Assembly (NCBI GenBank): GCA_013076295.1
Contig: RQOL01000855.1
Coordinates: forward strand, 2,914,001-2,978,000
Direction of reading: 5' to 3'
Length of the DNA stretch: 64,000 nt
DNA from: Sanderia malayensis
Lineage: Eukaryota > Cnidaria > Scyphozoa > Semaeostomeae > Pelagiidae
Part shown: piece after piece, positions 1-61,800 of the stretch
Layout of the letters: each line of letters starts with the position of its first letter
How positions within the stretch are numbered: the first letter of the stretch is position 1
Notes under the pieces: model-generated
Databases searched by the model: none
Told to the model about the DNA's origin: nothing
The model's input: only the letters and a program-made list of their open reading frames with translations
Made by a program: the position numbers and the translations under genes

Positions 1-885
1 TGCCCGCCTTGATAGTCACGGACAACGCGAAAACGTTCAAATCAGCGTCTAAACAACTATCAAGGCTATTTGAGTTGCCAGAAGTCACTAACTTCCTTAC
101 AAAGGGCAGAATCACATGGCAGTACATACTGGCACGTGCTCCATGGTGGGGTGGATTTTACGAAAGATTAGTCAAGAGTGTAAAATCCTGTCTAAAGAAG
201 GTCGTTGGCAATGCAAGGTTGTCAACAGATGAACTACGAACAACGATAATTGAAATTGAAGCAGTTATAAACTCTAGACCCTTGACACACATCTACGATG
301 ATAGTCTAGAAGATCCTATCACACCTTCACACCTAGTAATAGGAAAGAAGTTGATTGCTGTACCACATCAACAATACGAAGAACCAGAAGACCCCGACTT
401 TGGAGATCAGGGAAACATTCAAAGACGAGCGAAACGCTTGAGTTTGGTTCTGAAACACTTTCAAACAAGATGGAAAACAGAATATCTTTCAGATCTCAGA
501 GAACAACATCGAAACGCGAGCAAGAAACTTCGCAAACCATTGATAACGACGGATGACATTGTTACTGTCATGAATGAAAACAACTCAAACAGAAACGTCT
601 GGAAGCTAGGCCGAGTCGAGTCACTTGTGATTGGGAAGGATAACGAAGTGAGAGGTGCAAAAGTAAGGTTGGCGAAACCAACAACAAATAACAAGGCCAC
701 TTCAGAAACTTTTCCCGTTGGAAGTTTGCAAAGAGAAACAGACTGACGAAAAAGAGAAAGCTCTTCCCAGTACAGAAATTGTAAGCAACGAGAAGAGAGA
801 CAATCCCCAACGAAGAACAGCAGCGGTCGTTGGAACTGCTAAGAGACAATTGGTTGATCAGTTATTGGCAGAAGATATAGACTGA
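1..885 (+). pseudogene. BEL/Pao retrotransposon integrase, 3' end of pol, frameshifted
   Basis: The reading frame is already open at base 1, so the element starts left of the window. It encodes the C-terminal part of a BEL/Pao integrase: a DNAKTF block near the start and the typical APWWGGFYERLV block around bases 135-175, followed by the usual conserved tail region. The first frame stops at 744-746. From about base 690 the family-like tail is instead read in the next forward frame and runs to a stop at 883-885. One base has therefore been gained or lost near 690 and this copy cannot make an intact polyprotein. Assignment to BEL/Pao is by recognised motifs; the frame change is seen directly. 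Confidence 0.85.
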
Positions 886-1080: not shown

Positions 1081-1684
1081 CATTGTGCTATGCTAGGCTG
1101 TCCTCTCCGAAAGAACAACACAACAATTCGCACAAACACAAACCAGTTGAATCTGTACACAGGCTACTCTTTCTAAGCTTTCTTGTATTATATTTTTAAC
1201 CTCCTTTTTCACTGCTCCTTTGTTACTTCTAATACACTCTCCAGCTTTACTCCTATTTCTTCTGCTAATCTTTTGTATTTTTAAACAAGTTCTTTCCCAA
1301 ATTCGTTCTTCGATTATCTGTTTACCTAACCTATTCTTATCCGTTGTTGTCATCTGGCTGTGTGCTTTGTGAGCAAAACAATCGACGTTACTAAAAGAAC
1401 AGGCGGAACAACGGAACATACCAGAACAATCCAAGAACAGGCTGAACACTCCAAGAACAATCCTAGAACACCCCAAGAACAGGTCTAAATAATCGTTAAA
1501 TACCGCGAAGGCGCAGCGCAACTACTCAGCCTACGATGTCATATGATGATGCTGGGCATGTATGTAATAATGAGTCACTACACATAGTTTACAAACTTCT
1601 AGAACTTGATTTACATAGTATTCCTCTTCTTGAAGATGAGAAAGGAAATGACTCAGTTTATGTATGTAATCTTACTTACTTATA
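1081..1684. other. Intergenic, no supported gene
   Basis: There is an open frame on the minus strand (1093-1521), but it has no recognisable domain and partly overlaps imperfect short repeats of the form CCAAGAACA at about 1,405-1,490. I do not call a gene here. Confidence 0.5.
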
Positions 1685-2481
1685 CAGTCAACTCTGTCTA
1701 ATTCGAACTCGTGTAATTCGAACTTTTACTAATTCGAACCAAATTCTGTGGTCCCTTGAAAAATTCCTAACAAACCCTTATAAAAAACCTCTATAATTCG
1801 AACCTCTGTAATTCGAACTTTCTGTAATTCGACCATTTATTTTAGTCCCCTCAAAGAAAAAACCTCTGTAATTCGAACTTTGTGTTAATCTCAGTTAATT
1901 ACCTGATGACAGTACTTCTTTTTTTTGCTCTTGTCTCTGGCAAGCCCATTGAAGCTTGCGTAATATAAAATTCGTAGGCCAATATAAACGAAATTTCAAT
2001 TCATTTCGATGCTGAACTGCCGGTTATTGTTACAAAAAATTCGAGCGTTCTATCTCATGAAAAAGGTTATCACGTGTACCAAAGTGTATGAAGACCTGTA
2101 TAATTAATAAAGCTTTAGAAGCTAAAAGACAACCAGAGAACCCAACGAATAAATATGCCGTGGGTGTGCTCAAAGATGACAAAGTTTGGGGCACTTAGAC
2201 AAAGGCAGTAATGAACGCTTTGCAAAACAATTTTCCATGTTGTGACGTTATCCATATATTTTTGTTTTCTATTATAATAATTAATAAACTGTTTTGCTTC
2301 TTTAAAATGCCTTTAGTCCATAACAATGGTAAAAAAATATAGTTTATGCCATAAAACGGAGATATGGGGGTAACTAGGGGTAAAATATGGCACTTACATG
2401 AAAACTCGTATAATTCGAACTTTCTGTAATTCGAACAAATTGGGATTCCCCCATAGAGTTCGAATTAGACAGAGTTGACTG
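1685..2481. mobile_element. pogo/Tigger-like MITE, 797 bp
   Basis: It is bounded by inverted termini beginning CAGTCAACTCTGTCTAATTC and flanked by TA on both sides (1683-1684 and 2482-2483), the Tc1/mariner/pogo target duplication. Subterminal TAATTCGAAC motifs recur at both ends. No transposase frame is visible, so it is non-autonomous. A second copy of the same element, interrupted by a later insertion, is at 55,684-59,123. Confidence 0.8.
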
Positions 2482-3441: not shown

Positions 3442-5265
3442 ATGAGTTTCCTCTTGTAAGTATAACTATTATGTTCAGTTTTTTACTTTCATGAACTTCC
3501 TTGGCTTTTCTTGCTTTGACCTGTCCTTACTCGGCGATGTCGCAATGATAAGAAGGAATCGAATTTTCACGACGGCAGAGTTTAGATATTTTAAATAGTT
3601 AATAAATATTATCAAACATGATAATATGACAAAGCTCCCCTAATATTATCAAATATGATAATGTTTCAGCGGTGGAAAATCAACAAAGACATTTAAACCT
3701 CGCAAAAGCATCCCTGAAGGAACTCATCAATATGATCTGTTGAAACATGCTGAAGCTACTCTTGGCTCTGGAAATTTGCGATTGGCAGTCGTTCTGCCAG
3801 AAGGGGAAGATTTAAACGAATGGGTGGCAGTCAATTGTAAGTATCCAGGACTCAGTTTCTTAGCAAATATCTGACTTGAAATATTATATCATAATGTTTT
3901 GTTTGCAGTGTTATTAACATTCATTCAGACTTATTACACACGAATCCACGTACATACAGCTAAAACTAAGTAAAATACACATTCATTTACTTGTTTTCAA
4001 AGATGGTAACATTCATTCACACCTATTACACATGAATCCACGTAAATACAGCTAAAACTAAGTAAAATACACCTTAATTTACATGTTTTCAGTGATATTA
4101 ACATTCATTCACACTTATTACACATTTGTTCACATAAATATAGCTAAAACTAAGTATTTACATGTTTTCAGGATATTAACATTAATTCACATCTACCAAC
4201 TGCATTTCTTATCATTACTTTATAGCTGTTGACTTCTTCAATCAAATCAACATGTTGTATGGAACAATAACAGAATACTGCACACCAGAATCATGCCCTG
4301 TCATGTCTGCTGGACCAAAGTAAGTCATTCACTGTGTAATATTTTTGATGCCCATTTGCCACATGTCAGCATAGTCAGCATGCAATCATTTCCAACAATT
4401 TTTCTTCCAAGATGCGAATCAAACAATATATTTTTAATCCTAAAGCAGCTTGTCTGAATTTAAGGCCTGTATTTCTTTATTTCAAGGTTTGAGTATCTGT
4501 GGGCAGATGGAACAAATGTGAAAAAGCCAATTAAATGCTCAGCACCAAAATATATTGATTACTTGATGACATGGGTACAGGAACAATTAGATGATGAATC
4601 TCTGTTTCCATCAAAAATTGGTAAGTATCGTAAATCCTCAAATTACCCCCTTGACAAAGCCCTCCTCAAATTAGCTCCCTTCCTTAGATAACAAACTGTT
4701 AATAAGCTCACCCCCTCAAATAAGTTCCCTTCCTTAGATAACAAACTGTTAATAAGATTGCCCCACTCAAATAAGCCCCCATTGCTAGATAACAAACTGT
4801 TAATAAGCCTGCCCCCATCAACTAAGTCTCCATCCTCAGATAACAAACTGTTAAAATGATTGCCCCCCTCAAATAAGCTTCCCCCCAAGCATGTTGATTT
4901 TGCTACCATATCCTTATGACACATCATTTTTTTACCCCAAGCCAGTGCATTTCCTTATATGTATGATGTCATTGTATTTTGAGGATTTGCTAATTTGAGG
5001 ACTTACGGTGTGGTGTTTTTTTTTAGGTGTACCTTTTCCAAAAAATTTCCTCACAATTGCAAAGACAATCTTGAAGAGACTGTTTCGTGTTTATGCCCAC
5101 ATTTACCATCAGCATTTTGGGCAGGTTGTGAACCTAGGCGAAGAAGCACACTTGAACACATCATTCAAACACTTCATATTCTTCGTTCAGGAATTCAGTC
5201 TGATTGATAAACGTGAACTTGCCCCTTTGCAAGAGTTGATTGACAAATTGACAAGCAAAGGTTAA
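3442..5265 (+). CDS. MOB1: MOB kinase activator 1 (MOB1), 5 exons
   Basis: Exons are 3442-3455, 3670-3836, 4226-4319, 4487-4620 and 5027-5265. All introns are GT-AG and the joined frame encodes 215 residues, against 216 in human MOB1. The product follows MOB1 almost residue for residue. It keeps the zinc-site cysteines in CTPESCPVM, the paired histidines in HIYHQHF, and threonines at positions 12 and 35, which MST/Hippo kinases phosphorylate in the vertebrate protein. Family knowledge: MOB1 is the adaptor that binds and activates LATS/NDR kinases in the Hippo pathway and mitotic exit. The first exon codes for fewer than five residues. Intron 2 holds a 92-bp tandem repeat and intron 4 holds a MITE. 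Confidence 0.95.
3914..4190. repeat. Tandem repeat in MOB1 intron 2, about 92-bp unit, 3 copies
   Basis: The motifs TTAACATTCATTCACAC, CAGCTAAAACTAAGTA and ACATGTTTTCA recur in the same order three times, starting near 3,914, 4,007 and 4,099. The third copy is shortened and a partial fourth starts near 4,177. Confidence 0.75.
4629..5008. mobile_element. MITE with CGTAAATCCTC-type ends and internal 50-bp repeats
   Basis: The left end CGTAAATCCTCAAATTA pairs with TAATTTGAGGACTTACG at the right end. Inside, a unit of about 50 bp containing GATAACAAACTGTTAATAAG occurs four times between about 4,686 and 4,870, with CCCCCTCAAATAAGC spacers. It fills most of MOB1 intron 4. It resembles the CCGTATTTCC family elsewhere in the window, but the termini differ, so the family is uncertain. 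Confidence 0.55.
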
Positions 5266-44400: not shown

Positions 44401-47400
44401 ACATCTATATCTACCGATTACTGTCTTCCTTCCAAAAAGAAGATTCTGACAGGTTACAGCCAGAATGGATAGTAAACAGATACTAACTGAAATTTAGAAG
44501 TTTGATTTGGGTAAATCAGTCCAGTACATTAGTGGAAGTACCCATAAACTTCAAAAGGTGCATAATTAGTTGGAGCATATTAATAATAGATTAAACTACA
44601 GCATAGCGCACAGAACAGTATGAAATGTGTATTACAGCACCTTTACAGCCATTCACCCAGAAGCCCAAGCAGTATTTAGCTATACTTAGAAAGAATTTCA
44701 GGAAGAAAGAAATTGCGAAACTCAATAAATATTTACCATCAATTTCGTTTCTTTACTAAAGTTCTTATCGTCTTGTAACTCTATGATAAGCCGAGCCCTG
44801 TCGTTATCTGGTTCCACCTTAACCATGCCATGAATCACTGACGTCATTAGGTCACGTGCCTCAACCAAGAGGTCTTGACACTGGAACAAAAAGAGGTACA
44901 GATGATGAAAAAGTGACTCTGACATCCAAGACAAATTATGATCACAGCATCTGCCATTGCTTACTTTCTTGTTTGCGAAATGCACATTAATATCCTTCGC
45001 GTACGTCGAAAGGGTATTCGCATCGGCGTCAAGAAACCCTGCATAAGCACAAGAAAAATACGATAATTAAACGTCGAAACTCAGCACGTAATTCAATTTG
45101 CACACATAATCTTCAAGAGCTTGGTTATAAAAGTTGCAAGCATTTAAAAAAGTAAAGCAATGTACCAAGTTTGTGCAATTCTTCTTCGAAATCGTATGTA
45201 ATCTTGATTATCATGTCATATTTCTTGAGCTAAATAGAAAGAAACATAGATTGAAAATTGTTGTTATTGACAAAATTCCACGTGTGAGAGATCTGAGCAG
45301 AGAGAGGTTATAGTTTAAGTTGATAACCGATTTTGATACGCTTAGAAAGGCCTTTACCTGGCTGTGGTTAGTGGGGACAGAGCTGGATAAACATTCATTG
45401 ATGATCAATTCAGATAGCTCTGGCCAAATCAGCGATTCTAGAATAGAACAGTCTTTGATCGGTACAGAACTTCGAAATTGCTTTGAAAATCGGAAACATA
45501 GCGAAACACAATTGTTCGTTAGGTTTTCATTTTCGTTCTCTTTCTGACGTACTACTCTGATGAGTGTCAGACGAAAAGCTTTAGTATTTATTATGTTTCG
45601 CTATGTTTCCGATTTTCAAAGCAATTTTGAGATTCTAGAATAAGAGAATTATATGGTGTTGTCATAGAGAAGATGAGAAAAGAAGAAAATGAAAGAAGAT
45701 GATGGGAAATAAAAAAAGATGATGGGAGATGAAAGAAGATGATGGGAGATGAAAGAAGATGATGGGAGATGAAAGAAAATGATGGGAGATAAAAGAAATG
45801 ATGGGAGATGAAAGAAGATGATGGAAGATGAAAGAAGGTGATGGGAGATAAAAGAAATGATGGGAGATGAAAGAAGATGATGGGAGATGAAAGACCATGA
45901 TGGGAGAAGAAAGAAGATGATGGAAGATGAAAGAAAAAGATGGGAGATGAAAGATGAAAGAAGATGATGGGAGATGAAAGAAGATGATGGGAGATGAAAG
46001 AAGATGATGGAAGATGAAAGAAAAAGATGGGAGATGAAAGATGAAAGAAGATGATGGGAGATGAAAGAAGATGATGGGAGATGAAAGAAGATGATGGAAG
46101 ATGAAAGAAGATGATGGGAGATGAAAGAAGATGATGGGAGATAAAATAAGATGGTGGAAGGAAAGGATTGGGGGAAAGAAGAGGAAGACAAAGGCAAGAA
46201 ATACTCACGCAATTTAGCACAAGGCCCATTCCGTAAAACATTGTCTGCTTTGCTATCATCTTCAGCCGTCTCTTTCGATTTGTCACCAGGCGTGCTTGGG
46301 AATACATGGCATGCCACAAAGCGTATTACATCAGCTACTTTTTGGTAGACAGTGCCTAATAAGAAAATTGCAAAGTCAACATTAATCAACATCTTCTAGT
46401 AAGGTGATTTAGATAGTACAAATAACTCAACAGGGTAGTTCTATTAATAAACAATTATAGATTAACCATGCAAAATAAACAATCATTTATTGATTATATA
46501 CAATAAACAATAAAGTTTGTGTGTATTAATTGAATGAATTGTATATAAAGAAAGACCTGCTAATAGTTTTCGGGAGAATTACAGGAAAAAATGTTTTGTT
46601 TTGTTTTGTTTTTTGGCTGAAATAGCTGTAGGTTTTATAATAGGCGACCACCATTTTTGCTTCCTCCACTTAAGCCCGCCCTCAAGGAAGGGAACGTAGC
46701 GAGCGCTCCCGGTTAGTATATAAAAAAAGAATTAAATTATAACTACCAGGGTCAGGCCTCCTTGACTTGGCCTTTTTATCTTCCTTTGCAAATCTTAGAT
46801 GGAATACCTGCAATGAAAAGGAAGACATAGTTTACGCTGACACTGATGAGAACAAAATTTCAGTGATAGTATAATTGTTGATAAATTACCTTATCTCTTT
46901 CAATCACTGGCTTTATTCTACGATAGAAGCAAATTAGGTGGAGTAAAAAAAAGTGGAGTAAAAAAACGTATAAAGTGAAAAAAAAGTTATTCAAGTTAGA
47001 TAACGGCTGTAGATGCAGGAAACGTTGACAACCATCATTGAGAACACAGATGCATACCCAGGAAAAATGACCAGTGGCTTTAGTAGAAAATTCATCATCT
47101 TCTTTGCTGGAAAAAGCAAACAAATAAACTCGATAATAAGGCTATTTATCAGACCCAATAATGTTGATACAACATCCATTGCATAGTACCATGAACATAC
47201 AACAGTTATGCTCAAAAAACTAACGATAACGGGTATAAGCCTGAAACATTGTTAAAATTTATTCAATATTCAATGGTACTTTTTTCTTACATTTGAACAC
47301 TTTTATTTAACAGTTATGCTCCAATAGGCAACAACGATAGTTAAAGAGAGAATAAAGCAATAATCTGCAGAACGAGAGATTGTAGCTTCATACCAGATTT

Positions 47401-51913: not shown

Positions 51914-53284
51914 TTAAAGCTTATTCTTTGGTACTTCAATTATATTACTTTTCAAAAAACTTAACATACTCCTCCAGGAATGCTCTTGCGCTGCGGCATG
52001 CTGCACAACATTTCCACCCCAAGCCATTAGACAATCATAAAATTTATGGAACGAAACAGAGCAGAAAGGCATATAAGGAGGCTCAATCAAGTGTCCTGTT
52101 CCAGGATATGCTACATGTGTGACTTTATTTGGAATAGCTTCTCTCATTTCCTCAGCAAATCGACTGGCATTTAAACTTTGGTCATCCTCCCCTGTTACAC
52201 ACAACACTTGGCCAGAAATATTTTCAACACTAATCATACTATCACGGATAGCTTCTGGATAATTGTCAGAAGCATTTCTTGAAATTACTACCTCATTGCA
52301 GACTTCTACATCATCAATTGTATAATCTATAGACATTCCAATGAGCTCATTCTTGTACTTAATTCTGGTTCCAAGAAATGTAGGAGAGGATATTGCTACA
52401 ACGGCCTTCACCAAACTGCTCAGAGAAGCAACATGCAGAGCAACTTGCCCTCCATATGATACACCAACATACCCAACTCCATTTTTATATACCTTCTCAT
52501 GTTTTGAGAACCATTCGACAGCCTCAAGAAAGTATTCAATATCAAGATCAGATAATTGTTCGGGCAAGTCTTTGTATTTCATAAATGCAAGTGCAAATGT
52601 TGCAAAACCATGTGATGCCATAAGAGCAGCCCGATGTTCCAAAAGTCCACCAATAGACCCAAACATTTCGACAACTCCTGCAAAAAACAATGAATCTCAG
52701 ACATCTCACAAGACCATTGTTATGACATAATAAGATTAAATATAGTTTCATGTCTTCGACATGGTTGAAAAAGCAAATTCCAAGGGAATTTAATTACCTG
52801 GGAATCTCCCTTCGCCTTTTGGAAGAAAAAGATTGCCCCTTAATCTTCCCACATTTATTTCTTTCTTTTCCACCCATGGTGCAAGATATGTCCTCAGAAC
52901 GGTAGTAGATGCCAGTAAAGTTTTCTCAGAGCAGCTTTCAATGTGTCCATCAAACAACTCTACTTCAAACTTCATCGGCTTATCGATATTTTTTGGAATA
53001 TACCTCAAGCCCCTTCTTTGTCCAGGAGCTGGTCGAAGACTCCAAAACAACCCCATCTCATCAATTCCTGTGTAAGTACCACCAAATGATGGATCTTTGT
53101 TCAGGCTAACAGCTCCATTCGAGTCTGCAATAAAATGGCCTAATGCTTCGTACACTTCATTCTTCTCCGACCTCAACTCAACCCTCGACGTAACCTGTTG
53201 AAATTGCTGTAAATTTTGCACAACTATTGCAAATCTTTCGTCGACTAGAACGGGCCTACTTGGAGCAATGATTATCGGCCGCAT
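51914..53284 (-). CDS. Acyl-CoA thioesterase / BAAT-family protein, copy 1, 2 exons
   Basis: Exons are 53284-52798 and 52677-51914, encoding 416 residues. The N-terminal thioesterase/BAAT beta-sandwich domain covers about 1-150 (FGGTYTGIDEMGLFWSLRPA; GRLRGNLFLPKGEGRFPG). The alpha/beta hydrolase domain follows. Its catalytic triad is visible: Ser about 236 in GVSYGGQ, Asp about 327-328 in GEDDQ, His about 358 in GTGHLIEPPY. Serine rather than cysteine at the nucleophile predicts thioester hydrolysis, not bile-acid conjugation. The tail is NKL, a weak peroxisomal-signal-like end. The start chosen aligns with the other copies; the frame is open to an earlier ATG at 53,386 that would add 34 residues. 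The ACOT/BAAT family hydrolyses fatty acyl-CoA. Confidence 0.9.
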
Positions 53285-53462
53285 CGTGATATCTTTTATC
53301 ACAATGTCTCTTCCCAAACTCAAAATTTTGATGCATTGGGAAGAAAGAAAATCTTGAAGATCGAAGTCCGCGTGAAAGCATGACATGTGACAAAAAAATG
53401 CACAAGATGGGACAAATGACAGAACAAACAGGTATTTCTTAAATAAATTAGACGCCTGGGGC

Positions 53463-53850
53463 GGTTATTTATTCAAGCACCTTCACGGAAGAGACTGCAA
53501 GCCCCTACTCTTAATGAGGAAAAGCTAACATAAACAAACGAAAAAGGGTACTCAGCGAAATTGAGTTGGGACAAAGAACCAGCACATAAACACAATTCTC
53601 GGATAATTATTTCTAATGACCACACCTACATGCCACACCCTCTTTTCGGCGAACTTGAGACATTACACCTCTAGTAAAACCGCACCCCTGACGGCCCTGT
53701 ACCAGTTGCAATGCAACTTATACCCTGTAGGCAAAAAATTCAGTAATAGTAAATAGTAATCATACATATGATATATAAAAAAGCATAGTTACAATGTATT
53801 AAATTTCTTCGAGGCTTTGAGCGACACAAAAAAAGTTACATTAAAACTCA
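53463..53850. repeat. Duplicated intergenic block 1 of the thioesterase array
   Basis: Motifs such as GAGACTGCAAGCC, TGACCACACCTACATGCC and CCGCACCCCTGACGGCCCTG recur in the same order at 63,546-63,962, and the first part also at 59,148-59,290. This is the downstream flank of one gene copy and part of the tandem duplication unit. Confidence 0.75.
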
Positions 53851-55618
53851 CTAAAACTTACTTTTTGGTACTTCCAGTAAATTATTTTTCAAAAAACTTA
53901 ACATACTCTTCCAGGAATGCTCTTGGGCTGAAGCATGCTGTACAACATTTCCACCCCACCCCGTTAGACGATGGTATACTTTGTGGAATGAAACAGAGCA
54001 GAAAGGCATATAAGGAGGCTCAATTAAGTGTCCTGTTCTAGGATATGCTACATGTGTGACTTTATTTGGAATAGCTTCTCTCATTTCTTCAGCCATTTGG
54101 CTGGAATTTAAACATTGGTCATCCTCCCCTGTTACACACAACACTTGGCCAGAAATATTTTCAACTTTAATTCTACAATTACGGATTGCTTCTGGATATT
54201 TGTCAGGAATATTTTTTGTGACTACCACCTCATTGCAAATATCTGCATTATCAACCTTATAAAATGCAGACATTCCCAAGAGCTTATTCTTATATTTAAT
54301 AGTGGGAAAAAATGTAGGAGAGGATATTGCTACAACAGCCTTCACTAAACTGCTCAGAGAAGCAACATGCAGAGCAACTTGTCCTCCATATGATACACCA
54401 ACATAACCAACTCCATTTTTATATACCTTCTCGTGTTTTGAGAACCATTCGACAGCCTCAAGAAAGTATTCAAGTTCAACATCAGCTAATTTGTTAGGTA
54501 AGTCCTTGTATCTCATAAATGCAAGTGCAAATGTTGCAAAACCATGTGATGCCATAAGAGCAGCCCGATGTTCCAAAAGTCCACCAACAGTCCCAAACAT
54601 TTCAACAACTCCTGCAAAAAACAACGAGCCCTGAATCTCAGACATGTCACAAGACCATTGTGATGAAATGATAAAATTAAATACCGCAATACTTCGATTA
54701 AACGCCCTAGGCGTTTGTTAAATTTTTTAATATTTTAGGAGAGTGTCTTTTTGAAGGGGGCATTTAAGAGGGAGGGTTTATTAATAAATATCTAATGATG
54801 ATTGCACTGAATGTGAAACTCTGAGTGACAACTAAAAAGTCTGGTTCCAGAGGTATTATTTTAAAAAACATTTAAATATTTAGTTGAAATCAACATCATC
54901 TTTCTCGATGATGTTAAAAGAAGGGCGAGCTTCGGTTGTATTTCGAATACACGCCCCTCTAAAATGGGGCGTCTATTCGAGGGGGCGTTTAATAGAGAAG
55001 GTCGTTTATTGACGAAGTTTTCAAATAGGGGGCGTTTAAAAGAATGGGGCGTTTAATCGAAGCATTACGGCAATATTTTTGTGTCTTCGACATGGTTGAT
55101 AAAGCAAATTCCAAGACAATTTAATTACCTGGGAATCTCCCTTCGCCTTTCGGAAAAAAAAGACTGCCCCTTAATCTTCCCACATTTATTTCTTTCTTCT
55201 CCACCCATGGTGCAAGATATGTCCTCAGAACGGTAGTAGATGCCAGTAAAGTTTTCTCCTCGGGATAACTATCGATATGTCCATCAAACAACTCTACTTT
55301 AAACTTCATCGGCTTATCGATGTTTTTTGGAATATACCTCAAGCCCCTTCTTTGTCCAGGAGCTGGTCGAAGACTCCAAAACAACCCCATCTCATCAATA
55401 CCTGTGTAAGTACCACCAAATGATGGATCTTTGTTCAGACTAACAGCTCCATGCGAGTCTGCAATAAAATGGCCTAATGCTTCGTACACTTCATTCTTCT
55501 CCGACCTCAACTCAACCCTCAAAGTAACATGTTGAAATTGCTGCAAGTTTTGCACAACTATTGCAAATCGTTCGTCGACTAGAACGGGCCTACTTGAAGC
55601 AATGATTATCGGCTGCAT
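53851..55618 (-). CDS. Acyl-CoA thioesterase / BAAT-family protein, copy 2, 2 exons
   Basis: Exons are 55618-55129 and 54611-53851, 416 residues, very close to copy 1 throughout. The nucleophile Ser (GVSYGGQ), acid (GEDDQ) and His (TGHLIEPPY) are kept; the residue before TGH is Arg where the others have Gly. The tail is SKF, close to a type 1 peroxisomal signal. The 517-bp intron contains a 387-bp MITE (54,684-55,070). An acceptor-like TTTTTAG near 55,650 hints at a spliced 5' UTR. Confidence 0.9.
54684..55070. mobile_element. MITE, 387 bp, in the intron of thioesterase copy 2
   Basis: Ends CCGCAATACTTCGATTAAAC and GTTTAATCGAAGCATTACGG form inverted repeats with one extra base on one side. 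TA precedes and CA follows, so the target duplication is slightly decayed. GGGCGTTTAAT motifs are repeated inside. It is related in style to the CCGTATTTCC family. Confidence 0.7.
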
Positions 55619-56597
55619 GGTGATATATTTTATCACAGTTGCCTAAAAACATTGCAGAAGAGAGACAAATAACAGAACAAATACAGTCAACTCTACTCTA
55701 TGGGGGAATCCAAATTTGTTCGAATTACAGAAAGTTCGAATTATACGAGTTTTCATGTAAGTGCCATATTTTACCCCTAGTTACCCCCATATCTCCGTTT
55801 TATGGCCATAAACTATATTTTTATGACCATTGTTATGAACTAAAGGCATTTTAAAGAAGCAAAACAGTTTATTAATTATTATAATAGAAAACAAAAATAT
55901 ATGGATTACGTCACAGCATGGAAAATTGTTTTGCAAAGCGTCCATTACTGCCTTTGTCTAAGTGCCACAAATTTTGTCATCTTTGAGCACACCCACGGCA
56001 TATTTATCCGTTGGGTTCTCTGGTTGTCTTTTAGCTTCTAAAGCTTCATTAATTAGAGGTCTTCATACACTTTGGTACACGTGATAACCTTTTTCATGAG
56101 ATAAGCAGTTCAGCATCGAAGGGAATTGAAATTTCGTTTATGTTGGCCTTAATACCTCCTCTGCATCTTCAATGAGCTTGACAGGTTTGGGTACTTTAAT
56201 TAGTGCAAAGTTCAACTGATCAAATCTAACTTCTAGAAAGTGCCACGCTTAAACTGGGTCGTAAAAATCACTGTCTGGCATCCCGTACTAAGTCCCAGTA
56301 AGTCAATTTGCGTCAATTTACCCAATGACGCAAGCTTCAGTGGGCTTCCAGGGGCAAGAGCAAAAAAAAGAAGTTCTGTCATTAGGTAATTAACTGAGAT
56401 TAACCCAAAGTTCGAATTACAGAGGTTTTTTCTTTGAAGGGACAAAAATAAATGGTCGAATTACAGAAAGTTCGAATTACAGAGGTTCGAATTATAGAGG
56501 TTTTTTTATAAGGGTTTGTTAAGGCGGATTTACACGGTACAAGTTGGCTACAAGTTTTTTCGATATTGGACTGCAAACTTGAACTTGTATTGTGTAA

Positions 56598-57707
56598 AGG
56601 CGGGTTTACACGATCGTTTTTTGCCAACATTTTTTTTGATATTGGACTGCGAAGCTGAAGAAGGATCGTGTAAATGGCCAAAATTGTTGGCTGGGCATGC
56701 TGTTTTTAATCCGCTTATCTGTTGTTAATCACCCATCGTTGTAAATTTTATTTTGATTCAAGGTCAAAATAAAATCGCTCCATCATTTTTTTTCAAAGAC
56801 GCCGACAATGCCTGACGTCATGCTTGACTCGAAGGGATTCGAAATCACAAAGTTGGGGTGAAATAAGAAACACTAGACCTTTAATTTGCTTTTTCATCAA
56901 CAGAACAAACGGGAATACTATATTTTTAGGTAAAATATAACAGTTTATACGCAAAAGGTTTTTAAACGAGAAAATAACAAGTGAATATAGCAACACAAGA
57001 ACAACAATTGAAGAACATATCTACGAGAAATTTATACTATAAACACTTCCATTGCCATGGAACCTGTCCAGGCCCAAAAAATGGTCTGCAAATGTCTGTC
57101 GAACACTTTTTACAGAGGCCTTGGTATTGTTGCCTTTGGATCTGGGAGGTAAAGGCTGAAGGCATGTATTCGATTTCGCTTGTCTCCATCGTCGTTCGAT
57201 AACAACGTTGCAGAACAGTTTTTGGGCCTGGACAGGTTCCATGGCAATGGAAGTGTTTATAGTATAAACTTCTCGTAGATATGTTCTTCAGTTTGAATTG
57301 TGTTGCTATATGTATATATTCACTTGTTGATTTTTCGTTTAAAAACCTTTTGCGTATAAACTGTTATATTTTACCTATAAATATAGTATTCCTGTTTGTT
57401 CTGTTGATGAAAAAGCAAATTAAAGGTCTAGTGTTTCTTATTTCACCCCAACTTTGTGATTCTCGAAACCCTCCGAGTCAAACATGACGTCAGGCATTGT
57501 CGGCGTCTTTGAAAAAAAATGATGGAGCGATTTTATTTTGACCTTGAATCAAAATAAAATTTACGACGATGGGTGATTAACAACAGATAAGCGGATTAAA
57601 AACAGCATGCCCAGCCAACAATTTTGGCCATTTACACGATCCTTCTTCAGCTTCGCAGTCCAATATCAAAAAAAATGTTGGCAAAAAACGATCGTGTAAA
57701 CCCGCCT
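56598..57707. repeat. Left 1,110-bp sub-palindrome
   Basis: It begins AGGCGGGTTTACACGATCG and ends with the inverse. Inside, CCATGGAACCTGTCCAGGCC near 57,056 is mirrored at about 57,225-57,244, so this unit is itself an imperfect palindrome centred near 57,152, with arms of about 480 bp that differ at scattered bases. Confidence 0.85.
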
Positions 57708-57851
57708 TTACATGAAGTAGCGATTTGCTGCGTCTTTGAAAAAATGGTGTGAACTGAAAACTTTTTGACATCGAGTCAGAAATTTTTCGACTGTGATGGA
57801 GGATTAACGTCAATCAAAACAACAGGCGTGAACAGAATTTTAGGGCATTTA

Positions 57852-58961
57852 AGGCGGGTTTACACGATCGTTTTTTGCCAACATTTTTTTTGATATTGGA
57901 CTGCGAAGCTGAAGAAGGATCGTGTAAATGGCCAAAATTGTTGGCTGGGCATGCTGTTTTTAATCCGCTTATCTGTTGTTAATCACCCATCGTCGTAAAT
58001 TTTATTTTGATTCAAGGTCAAAATAAAATCGCTCCATCATTTTTTTTCAAAGACGCCGACAATGCCTGACGTCATGTTTGACTCGGAGGGTTTCGAGAAT
58101 CACAAAGTTGGGGTGAAATAAGAAACACTAGACCTTTAATTTGCTTTTTCATCAACAGAACAAACAGGAATACTATATTTATAGGTAAAATATAACAGTT
58201 TATACGCAAAAGGTTTTTAAACGAAAAATCAACAAGTGAATATATACATATAGCAACACAATTCAAACTGAAGAACATATCTACGAGAAGTTTATACTAT
58301 AAACACTTCCATTGCCATGGAACCTGTCCAGGCCCAAAAACTGTTCTGCAACGTTGTTATCGAACGACGATGGAGACAAGCGAAATCGAATACATGCCTT
58401 CAGCCTTTACCTCCCAGATCCAAAGGCAACAATACCAAGGCCTCTGTAAAAAGTGTTCGACAGACATTTGCAGACCATTTTTTGGGCCTGGACAGGTTCC
58501 ATGGCAATGGAAGTGTTTATAGTATAAATTTCTCGTAGATATGTTCTTCAATTGTTGTTCTTGTGTTGCTATATTCACTTGTTATTTTCTCGTTTAAAAA
58601 CCTTTTGCGTATAAACTGTTATATTTTACCTAAAAATATAGTATTCCCGTTTGTTCTGTTGATGAAAAAGCAAATTAAAGGTCTAGTGTTTCTTATTTCA
58701 CCCCAACTTTGTGATTTCGAATCCCTTCGAGTCAAGCATGACGTCAGGCATTGTCGGCGTCTTTGAAAAAAAATGATGGAGCGATTTTATTTTGACCTTG
58801 AATCAAAATAAAATTTACAACGATGGGTGATTAACAACAGATAAGCGGATTAAAAACAGCATGCCCAGCCAACAATTTTGGCCATTTACACGATCCTTCT
58901 TCAGCTTCGCAGTCCAATATCAAAAAAAATGTTGGCAAAAAACGATCGTGTAAACCCGCCT
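57852..58961. repeat. Right 1,110-bp sub-palindrome
   Basis: This is an inverted, nearly identical copy of 56,598-57,707. It is flanked by TTA on both sides (57,849-57,851 and 58,962-58,964), so it looks like a complete Harbinger-type insertion in its own right. The left copy has TAA and TTA instead. Confidence 0.85.
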
Positions 58962-59147
58962 TTACACGATACAAGTTCAAGTTTGCAGTCCAATATCGAA
59001 AAAACTTGTAGCCAACTTGTACCGTGTAAATCCGCCTTTAGGAATTTTTCAAGGGACCACAGAATTTGGTTCGAATTAGTAAAAGTTCGAATTACACGAG
59101 TTCGAATTAGACAGAGTTGACTGTTGTCATTTCTTAAATTAGACGCC

Positions 59148-59756
59148 CGGAGGCCCTTATTTATTCCAGCAGCTTCTCCGAAGAAACTGCAAGCCTGAAT
59201 ATATATTCTTAAATAGTAAAAGCTAATATAAACGAAACGAGAAAGGGTCCTCAGCAAAATCAAGTTGAGACAGAGAACCGGAATAAACACAATACGTATT
59301 TTTAGATTTCTTTCGTTTTGCTTTGCCCTCTTCTCGATCATTTCCTCTACATATTTCATCATCTCGCGCCATTCAAGTTACATCATTCTATTTTTATTTA
59401 TGCATCGTCACTCTTATCCTTCTAGAAACACTTTTGCTTTGTCATCATGATTTTTAGAGTAATATAATACGTGTAAATTATTGTAATTAGTCAGTCAGAA
59501 CCAGTCATTCAAAATCAACACACTGAATCGTTTCTCTCTGGCTCCGTGCTCCTTGCACGTAAAAGACATAAGCTGGAAAGCAGCGTTCGTTGGATTGTCT
59601 CTGTACATAGAGGAGAAGACACACACGCAGGCCTCTTCATATTAGGAACACAATTCCTAAAATACATATGGTTTATAAAATGCTGGAGTTAAAATGTATT
59701 TAATAAATTCAAGCCTTTAAGCGACACAGGAAAAGTTACATTAAAACTCACTAAAA
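59148..59756. repeat. Duplicated intergenic block 2 of the thioesterase array
   Basis: The first 140 bases and the last 60 bases before copy 3's stop match the blocks at 53,463 and 63,546; the middle is diverged or replaced. No gene is seen. Confidence 0.6.
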
Positions 59757-61250
59757 CTAACTTTTTGGTCCTTCAGTTATATTATTTTTCAAAAAATTTA
59801 ACATACTCTTCCAGGAATGCTCTTGGGCTGCAGTGTGCTGTACAATACTTCCACCCCAGCCCGTTAGACAATCATACGTTTTATGAAATGAAAAAGGGCA
59901 GAAAGGCATATAAGGAGGCTCAATTAAATGTCCTGTTCCAGGATATGCTACATGTGTGACTTTATTTGGAATAGCTTCTCTCATTTCTTCAGCCATTTGG
60001 CTGGATTTTAAACATTGGTCATCCTCCCCTGTTACACACAACACTTGGCCAGAAATATTTTCAACTTTAATCCTACAATTACGGACCGCTTGTGGATATT
60101 TGTCAGGAATATTTTTTGTGACTACCACCTCATTGCAAATATCTGCATTATCAACATCATAAAATAATGACGACATTCCCAAAGACTTATTATCATGCTT
60201 AATATTAGCAACAAAAAATGATGGGGTATTTATTGCTACAACAGCCTTTACCAAGCTGCTCAGAGAAGCGACATGCAGAGCAACCTGTCCTCCATATGAT
60301 ACCCCTACAAACCCAACTCCATTCGCATATACCTTCTCGTGTTTTGAGAACCATTCGACAGCCTCAAGAAAGTATTCAATATCAAGATCAGATAATTGTT
60401 CAGGTAAGTCCTTGTATCCCATAAATGCAAGTGCAAATGTTGCAAAACCATGCGATGCCATAAGAGCAGCTCGATGTTCCAAAAGTCCACCAACAGACCC
60501 AAAAACATCCAACACTCCTACAATAATTTAAATGTTATATAAAAAAGGCAACCGCACCTATTGTTTTGCCGTGTCGTAGACATCGGCGCTAACTGACAGG
60601 ATTTTTTTTGGACAGGGTGGCGAAAGTGCTAGAAATATAAATGCCAGAAATATATGTAATATACAACATCATGAACAACATGTGCATCGCCCTTGACCTG
60701 CCTGTTCGCGCCTTCGGTAGCAAAAACAAGAATTTAAAGAAGAATATTCGTTACGCACGTTACCTGGGAATCTCCCTTCGCCTTTCGGAAGAAAAAGACT
60801 GCCCCTTAATCTTCCCACATTTATTTCTTTCCTTTCCACCCATGGTGCAAGATATGTCCTCAGAACGGTAGAAGATGCCAGCGAAGTCTTTTCAGAGCAG
60901 CTGTCAATATGTCCATCAAACAACTCTACTTTAAACTTCATCGGCTTATCGATAATTTTTGGAATATACCTCAAGCCCCTTCTTTGTCCAGGAGCTTGTC
61001 GAAGACTCCAAAACAACCCCATCTCATCAATTCCTATGTAAGTACCACCAAATGATGAATCTTTGTTCAGACTAACAGCTCCATTCGAGTCTGCAATAAA
61101 ATGGCCTAATGCTTCGTACACTTCATCCTTCTCCGACCTCAATTCACCTCTCAACGTAACACGTTGAAATTGCTGCAAATTTTTCACAACTACCGAAAAT
61201 CTTTCGTTGAATAAAACGGGCCTTTTTGGAACAAGAATTTTGGGCCACAT
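59757..61250 (-). CDS. Acyl-CoA thioesterase / BAAT-family protein, copy 3, 2 exons, C-terminal tail lost
   Basis: Exons are 61250-60764 and 60517-59757, giving 415 codons. The catalytic residues are all kept (GVSYGGQ, GEDDQ, GTGHLIEPPY). It is the most diverged of the three full copies (MWPKILVPKRPV at the start; VLDVFGSVGG after the intron). Where copies 2 and 4 end PKSKF, this copy ends PKS, because the next codon AAG has become TAG. It therefore lacks the peroxisomal-signal-like tail while the rest of the enzyme is intact. Confidence 0.88.
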
Positions 61251-61800
61251 CGTGGTATTTTGCCTTTTGCTGGAATGAATTGTCTCTCGAAGCTTGAACC
61301 TCAAAGAACTCAACTCCCAAACCCCCGAGGAAGGTACAGGTAACCGCAGACTAAGGAATACAATTTCCTACAGTTTAAAGAACTTGCCAGGCATTACGCT
61401 CTTCCTTCTATGCTCAAATTCAATCCTTTTGTTGCAATGCAACCACTATGAACGCAAAATCTACGCGTTTTTCGTTTTCCAGATATTCCAGACTGTCTGG
61501 AAAATTTTGTTCATTGCTTCGAACAGAATGCGAAATCGGGGACTCCTCCTGGATTTTTTTCCCTAGCTTTGCGCAAAACGCACCGATCTGTTTTAAATAT
61601 TTTCGTGTAGTAAAATCAGATTTACTTTTGGTGAATTTCTCTTTTGCCTTCGAAATATTGAGCCTTTTCTAAATCGAAAAACTTTGTGAGGAAATCTTTT
61701 GTTTTTTATGTAACTTTAAGCAACCGGATTCCTGCCGCTGAGTCAGGGTATACGTTACTATTTGTCATTTGAGATGTTGGTTATTCAGCGTGTTTCCTTA
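61251..61800. other. Upstream region of thioesterase copy 3
   Basis: No gene or repeat is recognised. It should hold the copy 3 promoter. The minus-strand frame stays open to 61,313, but without an ATG. Confidence 0.45.

Follow-up and report, generated by a model that had tools for sequence, protein, structure and literature searches.

We describe a 2,516-bp palindrome built of two smaller palindromes, found at 56522-59037 of a 64,000-nt stretch of the jellyfish Sanderia malayensis genome (contig RQOL01000855.1, positions 2,914,001 to 2,978,000; hereafter the window), and we propose, with slightly better than even confidence, that it is an element of one foldback family, F2, carrying a nested element of a second family, U, and that its left arm arose when a hybrid-ended block, reaching from the inner end of U to the outer end of F2, was re-inserted in reverse at a TTA of the same F2. 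From left to right, the composite reads A, U1, a 144-bp core, U2 and A', with a TTA outside both ends. U1 and U2 are copies of U, a palindromic miniature inverted-repeat transposable element (MITE) of Harbinger type. The parts are as follows:

56519..56521 (+): left target-site duplication of the outer unit, TTA (read in the sequence; empty-site comparison).
56522..56597 (+): A, left copy of the F2 terminal segment (AGGCGGATTTACACG...GTGTAA), 76 bp; 94.7-98.7% identical to full-length F2 ends elsewhere, one difference from A'.
56598..57707 (+): U1, 1,110-bp palindromic Harbinger MITE, flanked by TAA and TTA, with no matching duplication.
57092..57207 (+): centre of U1, left unpaired; it resembles the region of locus L056 coding for the transposase C-terminus.
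57708..57851 (+): 144-bp core, the inner part of the F2 right arm; its first three bases are the TTA abutting U1.
57852..58961 (-): U2, exact reverse complement of U1, with TTA on both sides.
58962..59037 (-): A', right terminal segment of F2 (comparison with F2 ends elsewhere).
59038..59040 (+): right target-site duplication of the outer unit, TTA (read in the sequence; empty-site comparison).
56522..57707 (+): left outer arm, made up of A and U1, 1,186 bp, with an F2 end at one limit and a U end at the other.
57852..59037 (-): right outer arm, made up of U2 and A', 1,186 bp, the proposed hybrid transposable block (arm comparison).
1684..1887 (-): uninterrupted copy of the repeat hit by the outer unit (comparison with the joined flanks).

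The arms are mirror images of 1,186 bp each. In an exact comparison, 56522-57707 and the reverse complement of 57852-59037 differ at a single position, T/C at 56591, and BLAST of the same two arms gives one mismatch in 1,188 bp. The change sits in the left A (T versus C); A' keeps a CG dinucleotide there, as do F2 ends matched through TTTACACGATACAAG. This one difference points to a young event. U1 and U2 are exact reverse complements of each other (1,110 bp each) and are themselves palindromic, with arms of about 500 bp at 95.4% identity on either side of some 116 unpaired bp. As single-stranded RNA, U1 is predicted to fold into one long hairpin of -850 kcal/mol, a value that at such length stands without a shuffled comparison. 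The window sequence contains no N. The initial annotation had seen here a long inverted repeat with near-identical arms, each holding a 1,110-bp palindrome, and this description is borne out. The two halves it had proposed to align (56522-57779 and 57780-59037) differ at 60 positions, 59 of them in the single-copy core.

Judged by comparison with copies elsewhere in the assembly (184,004,477 bp in 918 contigs; our genome searches scored the best candidates only, and copy counts are lower bounds), the outer 76-bp ends and the 144-bp core belong to F2, a PIF/Harbinger family different from that of the inner U units. F2 is a foldback family, mostly of about 1.06-1.10 kb, in which the core directly adjoins the terminal segment A, and its copies are palindromic (arms 96.5% identical over 396 bp in L010). 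A 181-bp query over the core gave 40 genome matches, the best 40 of 107 candidates scored, and among these the window's own was the only one to span the query fully, reaching into U at either side; in the matches elsewhere, the core stands next to A. All 42 core copies outside the composite, some of them from overlapping loci, have CAAACC or CAAGCC followed by TTAC as the inner flank of the core. With exact patterns requiring TTA or TAA, the flanking duplications match in 17 of 17 paired F2-ended elements, the outer unit included, and an F2 copy outside this pattern set (L015, C859:1369132 region) has TAT at each flank. When the flanks of the composite are joined over one TTA, they give an uninterrupted repeat that is present over 205-209 bp at 98.0-99.5% identity at 9 of 9 fetched loci (L030-L038), and also in the window itself at 1684-1887 (minus strand); the left flank alone occurs at no fewer than 39 other genome loci. 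Since the joined flanks rebuild an intact repeat, an element with a TTA duplication entered a dispersed repeat here. The target duplication of the outer unit, which the initial annotation had called clean, is therefore real, far beyond chance.

The two inner units differ in their junctions. U2 inserted in the ordinary way, at a TTA within the right end of F2: its context is TTTA/U2/TTACAC, corresponding to an insertion point TTTA/CACG with TTA duplicated, and when U2 is left out, the 217 bp made up of core, TTA and A' match 39 of 39 F2-type end records at 97.7-99.5% (best L010, one difference in 217), these records being taken from either end, with coding relatives and some overlapping loci included, by a search expression that admits F2-like ends only. 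The flanks of U1 disagree, with TAA outside and TTA inside, and U1 is the sole mismatch among 15 paired U-ended elements, the other 14 having matching duplications under the same kind of exact pattern. Its outer flank is the mirror of the outer flank of U2. On the inner side, U1 abuts a further TTA of F2, the one at the core's inner edge, and the left half of F2 is absent from the composite. The limits of the mirrored block coincide exactly with a U end on one side and an F2 end on the other, and both ends of A-U1 abut a TTA, the left one being also F2's own; TTA starts at 2.4% of window positions. The left arm therefore amounts to U2-A' copied in mirror image, with terminal repeats at both limits. 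The duplicated block (56522-57707 and 57852-59037) is in this way bounded exactly by the ends of two elements, one of the features expected of a product of alternative transposition.

Neither of the junctions that characterise the composite turned up in another F2. The A-U junction, with a U end, is present exactly at both window sites and at one further place, C829:5721747, where it flanks L040, a U copy of the ordinary kind; the genome search found none in any other F2. The U1-core junction is matched exactly only here in the assembly, with two 3-mismatch matches on C829. Searches with these two junctions found no second copy of the whole 2,516-bp composite in the assembly, and there is no sign that it moves as a whole.

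Because the mirrored block spans exactly from the inner end of U2 to the outer end of F2, we infer that a hybrid-ended block was re-inserted in reverse. The order of events would have been the following: (i) F2 inserts at a TTA in the dispersed repeat; (ii) U2 inserts at a TTA in the right end of F2; (iii) a transposase, which could be supplied by coding relatives such as L056 or L077, pairs the inner end of U2 with the right end of F2 and so treats the block between them as one transposon; (iv) the hybrid block re-inserts in reverse at the inner TTA of F2; (v) the donor gap is refilled from the sister chromatid; and (vi) the two copies of A, by then in direct repeat, recombine, whereby the left half of F2 would be removed.

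The main rival, copying from the inverted arm during repair, was one of the origins that the initial annotation had entertained, and it is still a live explanation, albeit an unlikely one by our estimate. In this scenario, once U2 has entered the right end of F2, a break in the left arm is repaired by fold-back from the inverted right arm, U is copied, and the product is joined to the TTA of the core with loss of the F2 left half. F2 is itself palindromic, so A can pair with A', and U looks like a product of just this kind, the right end of L056 being joined to an inverted copy inside the transposase frame. However, copying would be expected to continue into the core, yet it stops exactly at the end of U with a joint on TTA, and a non-homologous join falling there is unlikely, its chance being by a rough estimate the product of about 1 in 1,000 for hitting the U end and 2.4% for hitting a TTA. 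Repair copying leaves both the transposon-end limits and the TTA joint unexplained. A variant in which fold-back is primed by microhomology at the U1-core joint was rejected, as inspection shows an overlap of only about 1 bp. Separate arrivals of U (left outer, right outer and right inner), followed by recombination between U copies that deletes the F2 left half, are improbable. It is true that L039, which lies on a different contig, is a U copy matching both U1 and U2 at 100%, so that the identity of the arms alone is weak evidence of copying, and that both sites are TTA, with TTACAC a favoured target context. On the other hand, the further U copies expected by chance in one given F2 number about 1.5e-4 (assuming 25 U copies and no local hopping), which makes an independent arrival unlikely, and under the same assumptions the exact mirror site and orientation bring this to about 3e-6; besides, no other F2 was found in the genome with a U adjoining A. 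The suggestion of the initial annotation that two inverted foldback MITEs moved together into the site as one composite fares still worse, and we regard it as very improbable: F2 termini are complete at both outer limits and the TTA duplication outside them agrees, so that the whole could in principle move, but no second copy was found in the assembly, the A-U junction in F2 and the exact U1-core junction occur only here, the ends and core are F2 and only the inner units U, and an F2 insertion rebuilt in place gives the same outer duplication. Least probable of all is an artefact of assembly or of fold-back in long reads. Fold-back reads can produce perfect inverted repeats, but here the left and right flanks differ and jointly rebuild an uninterrupted repeat, the inner joint, a TTA, makes biological sense, and the window is free of N.

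Several observations weigh against re-insertion of a hybrid-ended block. Its intermediate was not found: among the ends listed, 0 of 58 F2 ends and 0 of 37 U ends are flanked by the inner CAAACC or CAAGCC followed by TTA, and no other F2 turned up with U joined to A. Two steps are required, and the second, the loss by recombination between the A copies, leaves no scar of its own. The TTA stands at all the expected joints, and for this reason it cannot separate the hybrid-block route from repair-based copying. Finally, in the texts consulted, alternative transposition is documented for Ac/Ds and cited for P elements; for a Harbinger-bearing repeat, it figures there as no more than one of two explanations between which no decision is made (PMC1952172). 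A related route, transposition between sister chromatids with two same-facing ends, was rejected on paper, the observed order not being produced.

The U family bears on the age of the symmetry. In 13 other full-length copies that we fetched, U is 95.6-100% identical to the window U, and the target duplications match in all of them. The inner arms are 94.4-95.8% identical in 11 of these 13 copies, 98.2% in L050 and 99.6% in L051, the last two possibly being nearer the founding palindrome or converted. A divergence common to most U copies does not date events at the composite, and the inner-arm divergence of the window U is, from this comparison, largely inherited within the family. The initial annotation had taken near-identical outer arms against diverged inner arms to mean that the outer inversion is much younger, or is being homogenised: the youth of the outer symmetry stands on its one difference, the dating against the inner arms does not, and homogenisation is unneeded, because the independent copy L039 is also identical to both units. 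Multi-copy and near-identical, with long inverted arms and without a complete transposase frame, U is a foldback-type MITE; no listed window reading frame of at least 170 aa overlaps it. Aligned with the right end of L056, its bases 1-611 run from 4785 to 4182 and its bases 611-1110 in the opposite sense, from 4299 to 4785, at 92-93% identity, the joint of the two halves falling in the C-terminal part of the transposase reading frame. Both halves match one end in opposite directions, and U therefore looks like an inverted duplication of that end, a topology which the composite repeats one level up. U-ended elements with an interrupting insert were also seen at L052 and L053 (C675 and C641), two contigs that share their pattern of U matches; the L052 insert carries a short tandem repeat (SGIRNPE-like residues when translated).

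F2 is variable as well, with shortened and one-core variants (L011-L013, L016, L019, L022). A one-core variant with a shortened left end (L076, C428:27300-37299) recurs about every 6.1 kb on C428, two copies having been read. Another locus, L079 (C815:597200-599700), is F2-ended, 2,326 bp long and flanked by matching TTA; it carries, at the boundary of A, an insert whose inverted ends are perfect over 69 bp and at whose edges 11 bp of F2 are repeated, and the right part of the element is scrambled. It was considered as a second composite and rejected, being F2-ended but without a U match.

Both families have coding relatives with the same ends. L056 and L057 (3.78 kb) have U-like ends with inverted repeats of 362-364 bp at 98% identity, and L077 and L078 (3.90 kb) have F2-like ends with inverted repeats of 430 bp at 98.8%. 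The domain scan covered L056 and L077, in which it found a DDE_Tnp_4 reading frame (E=4.9e-26 and 4.7e-27, respectively) and a MADF_DNA_bdg (Myb/SANT-like) reading frame (E=1.1e-13 and 2.7e-15); L057 and L078 are known by their nucleotide identity to these (99.7% over 5.8 kb and 99.96% over 5.1 kb), so near that the members of each pair may represent a single locus that was assembled twice, or else a segmental copy. With this transposase domain, a Myb/SANT-like second frame and 3-bp TTA/TAA duplications (one miss, U1), U and F2 are PIF/Harbinger elements, in agreement with the Harbinger-type unit named in the initial annotation. PF13359, the transposase domain, is abundant in the genome, with at least 151 matches (the best 150 of 710 candidates scored), and the best named match of the transposase is in the jellyfish Rhopilema esculentum (75% over 92%); a further database entry reaches 98% identity over 56%.

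The ends AGGCGG(G/A)TTTACACG are common to U-type and F2-type elements, and L056 and L077 have transposases with 75% identity and MADF proteins with 56% over the aligned part. According to PMC2836001, the proteins of Ping and Pong, with 77% and 62% identity, both mobilise mPing. Taken with the similarity between the L056 and L077 proteins, this precedent makes a shared use of ends between U and F2 plausible, and with it cross-recognition of these ends by the two transposases. Of 26 distinct F2 right contexts, 4 have TTACAC after the point of insertion, compared with 46 of 2,984 TTA sites in the window (p = 6e-4, the background being this window only and C at the first pattern position unsampled), and it is present in 3 of 20 distinct U contexts, two of them the window's own; it is a favoured target context. 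The same TTACAC lies within the TTTACACG motif of the elements themselves, and may thereby favour the nesting of one family in the other.

As for its surroundings, the composite is located between the second and third of three diverged tandem gene copies (51914-61313, minus strand), which we take to encode a BAAT-like acyltransferase/thioesterase. Elsewhere in the window, a reading frame at 9-746 (+) presumably resembles the integrase region of a Pao/BEL-type retrotransposon, and a low-complexity repeat at 45591-46392 (-) is read in two overlapping frames.

To our knowledge, the origin of the long mirror arms of foldback MITEs is poorly resolved. Here arm formation is caught in its second round, and the parent families, their coding relatives, uninterrupted targets and a diagnostic mismatched duplication are all found in one genome; the locus points to the joint use of ends from different families. 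We tentatively suggest, at somewhat less than even confidence, that the near-identical ends of related Harbinger families let a transposase pair the ends of a nested element and its host, the hybrid block then jumping in reverse into its own host. If so, Harbinger would gain a macrotransposition route known from Ac/Ds, and, were the process repeated, foldback elements would become palindromes of palindromes. For annotation, such a unit would pass as a single long palindromic element though it is a nested product. In the literature searched (titles and abstract openings), we found no palindrome of palindromes and no alternative transposition of Harbinger, which is not a claim of absence from print.

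Several known systems share features with the composite. Like Ping, Pong and mPing, the U and F2 families combine DDE_Tnp_4 and Myb/SANT-like (MADF) frames in coding relatives with 3-bp TTA/TAA duplications and short non-coding derivatives. Unlike them, they have palindromic derivatives, one of which is here nested in another and mirrored, and their terminal inverted repeats are long, measuring about 362 and 430 bp in coding relatives. Long near-perfect arms around a short centre recall foldback elements such as Galileo, whose terminal repeats are of dynamic structure (PMC4168063), although here the elements are Harbinger and the duplications 3 bp. Inverted duplication by fold-back or hairpins at double-strand breaks is known from yeast and human (PMC7467729, PMC10622511, PMC3907307), whereas the composite has its joints at transposon ends and TTA. 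An inverted-repeat block associated with Harbinger is found in the repeat of the Anopheles gambiae 2Rj inversion, which contains Harbinger1_AG fragments and is discussed by the authors in terms of either alternative transposition or homologous recombination; that block, however, is 14.6 kb long, is taken as a segmental duplication, has 8-bp rather than 3-bp duplications and is not built from intact Harbinger ends (PMC1952172). A parallel in mechanism is the alternative transposition documented for maize Ac/Ds, in which the ends of two nearby elements generate composite insertions, duplications and deletions, and cited also for the Drosophila P element, with its hybrid element insertion (PMC4270019, PMC3744419). 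As in those systems, the ends of two nearby elements would have been used here; but while Ac/Ds and P involve separate neighbours of one family, the event proposed from this one locus would have joined the ends of two related families, one nested in the other.
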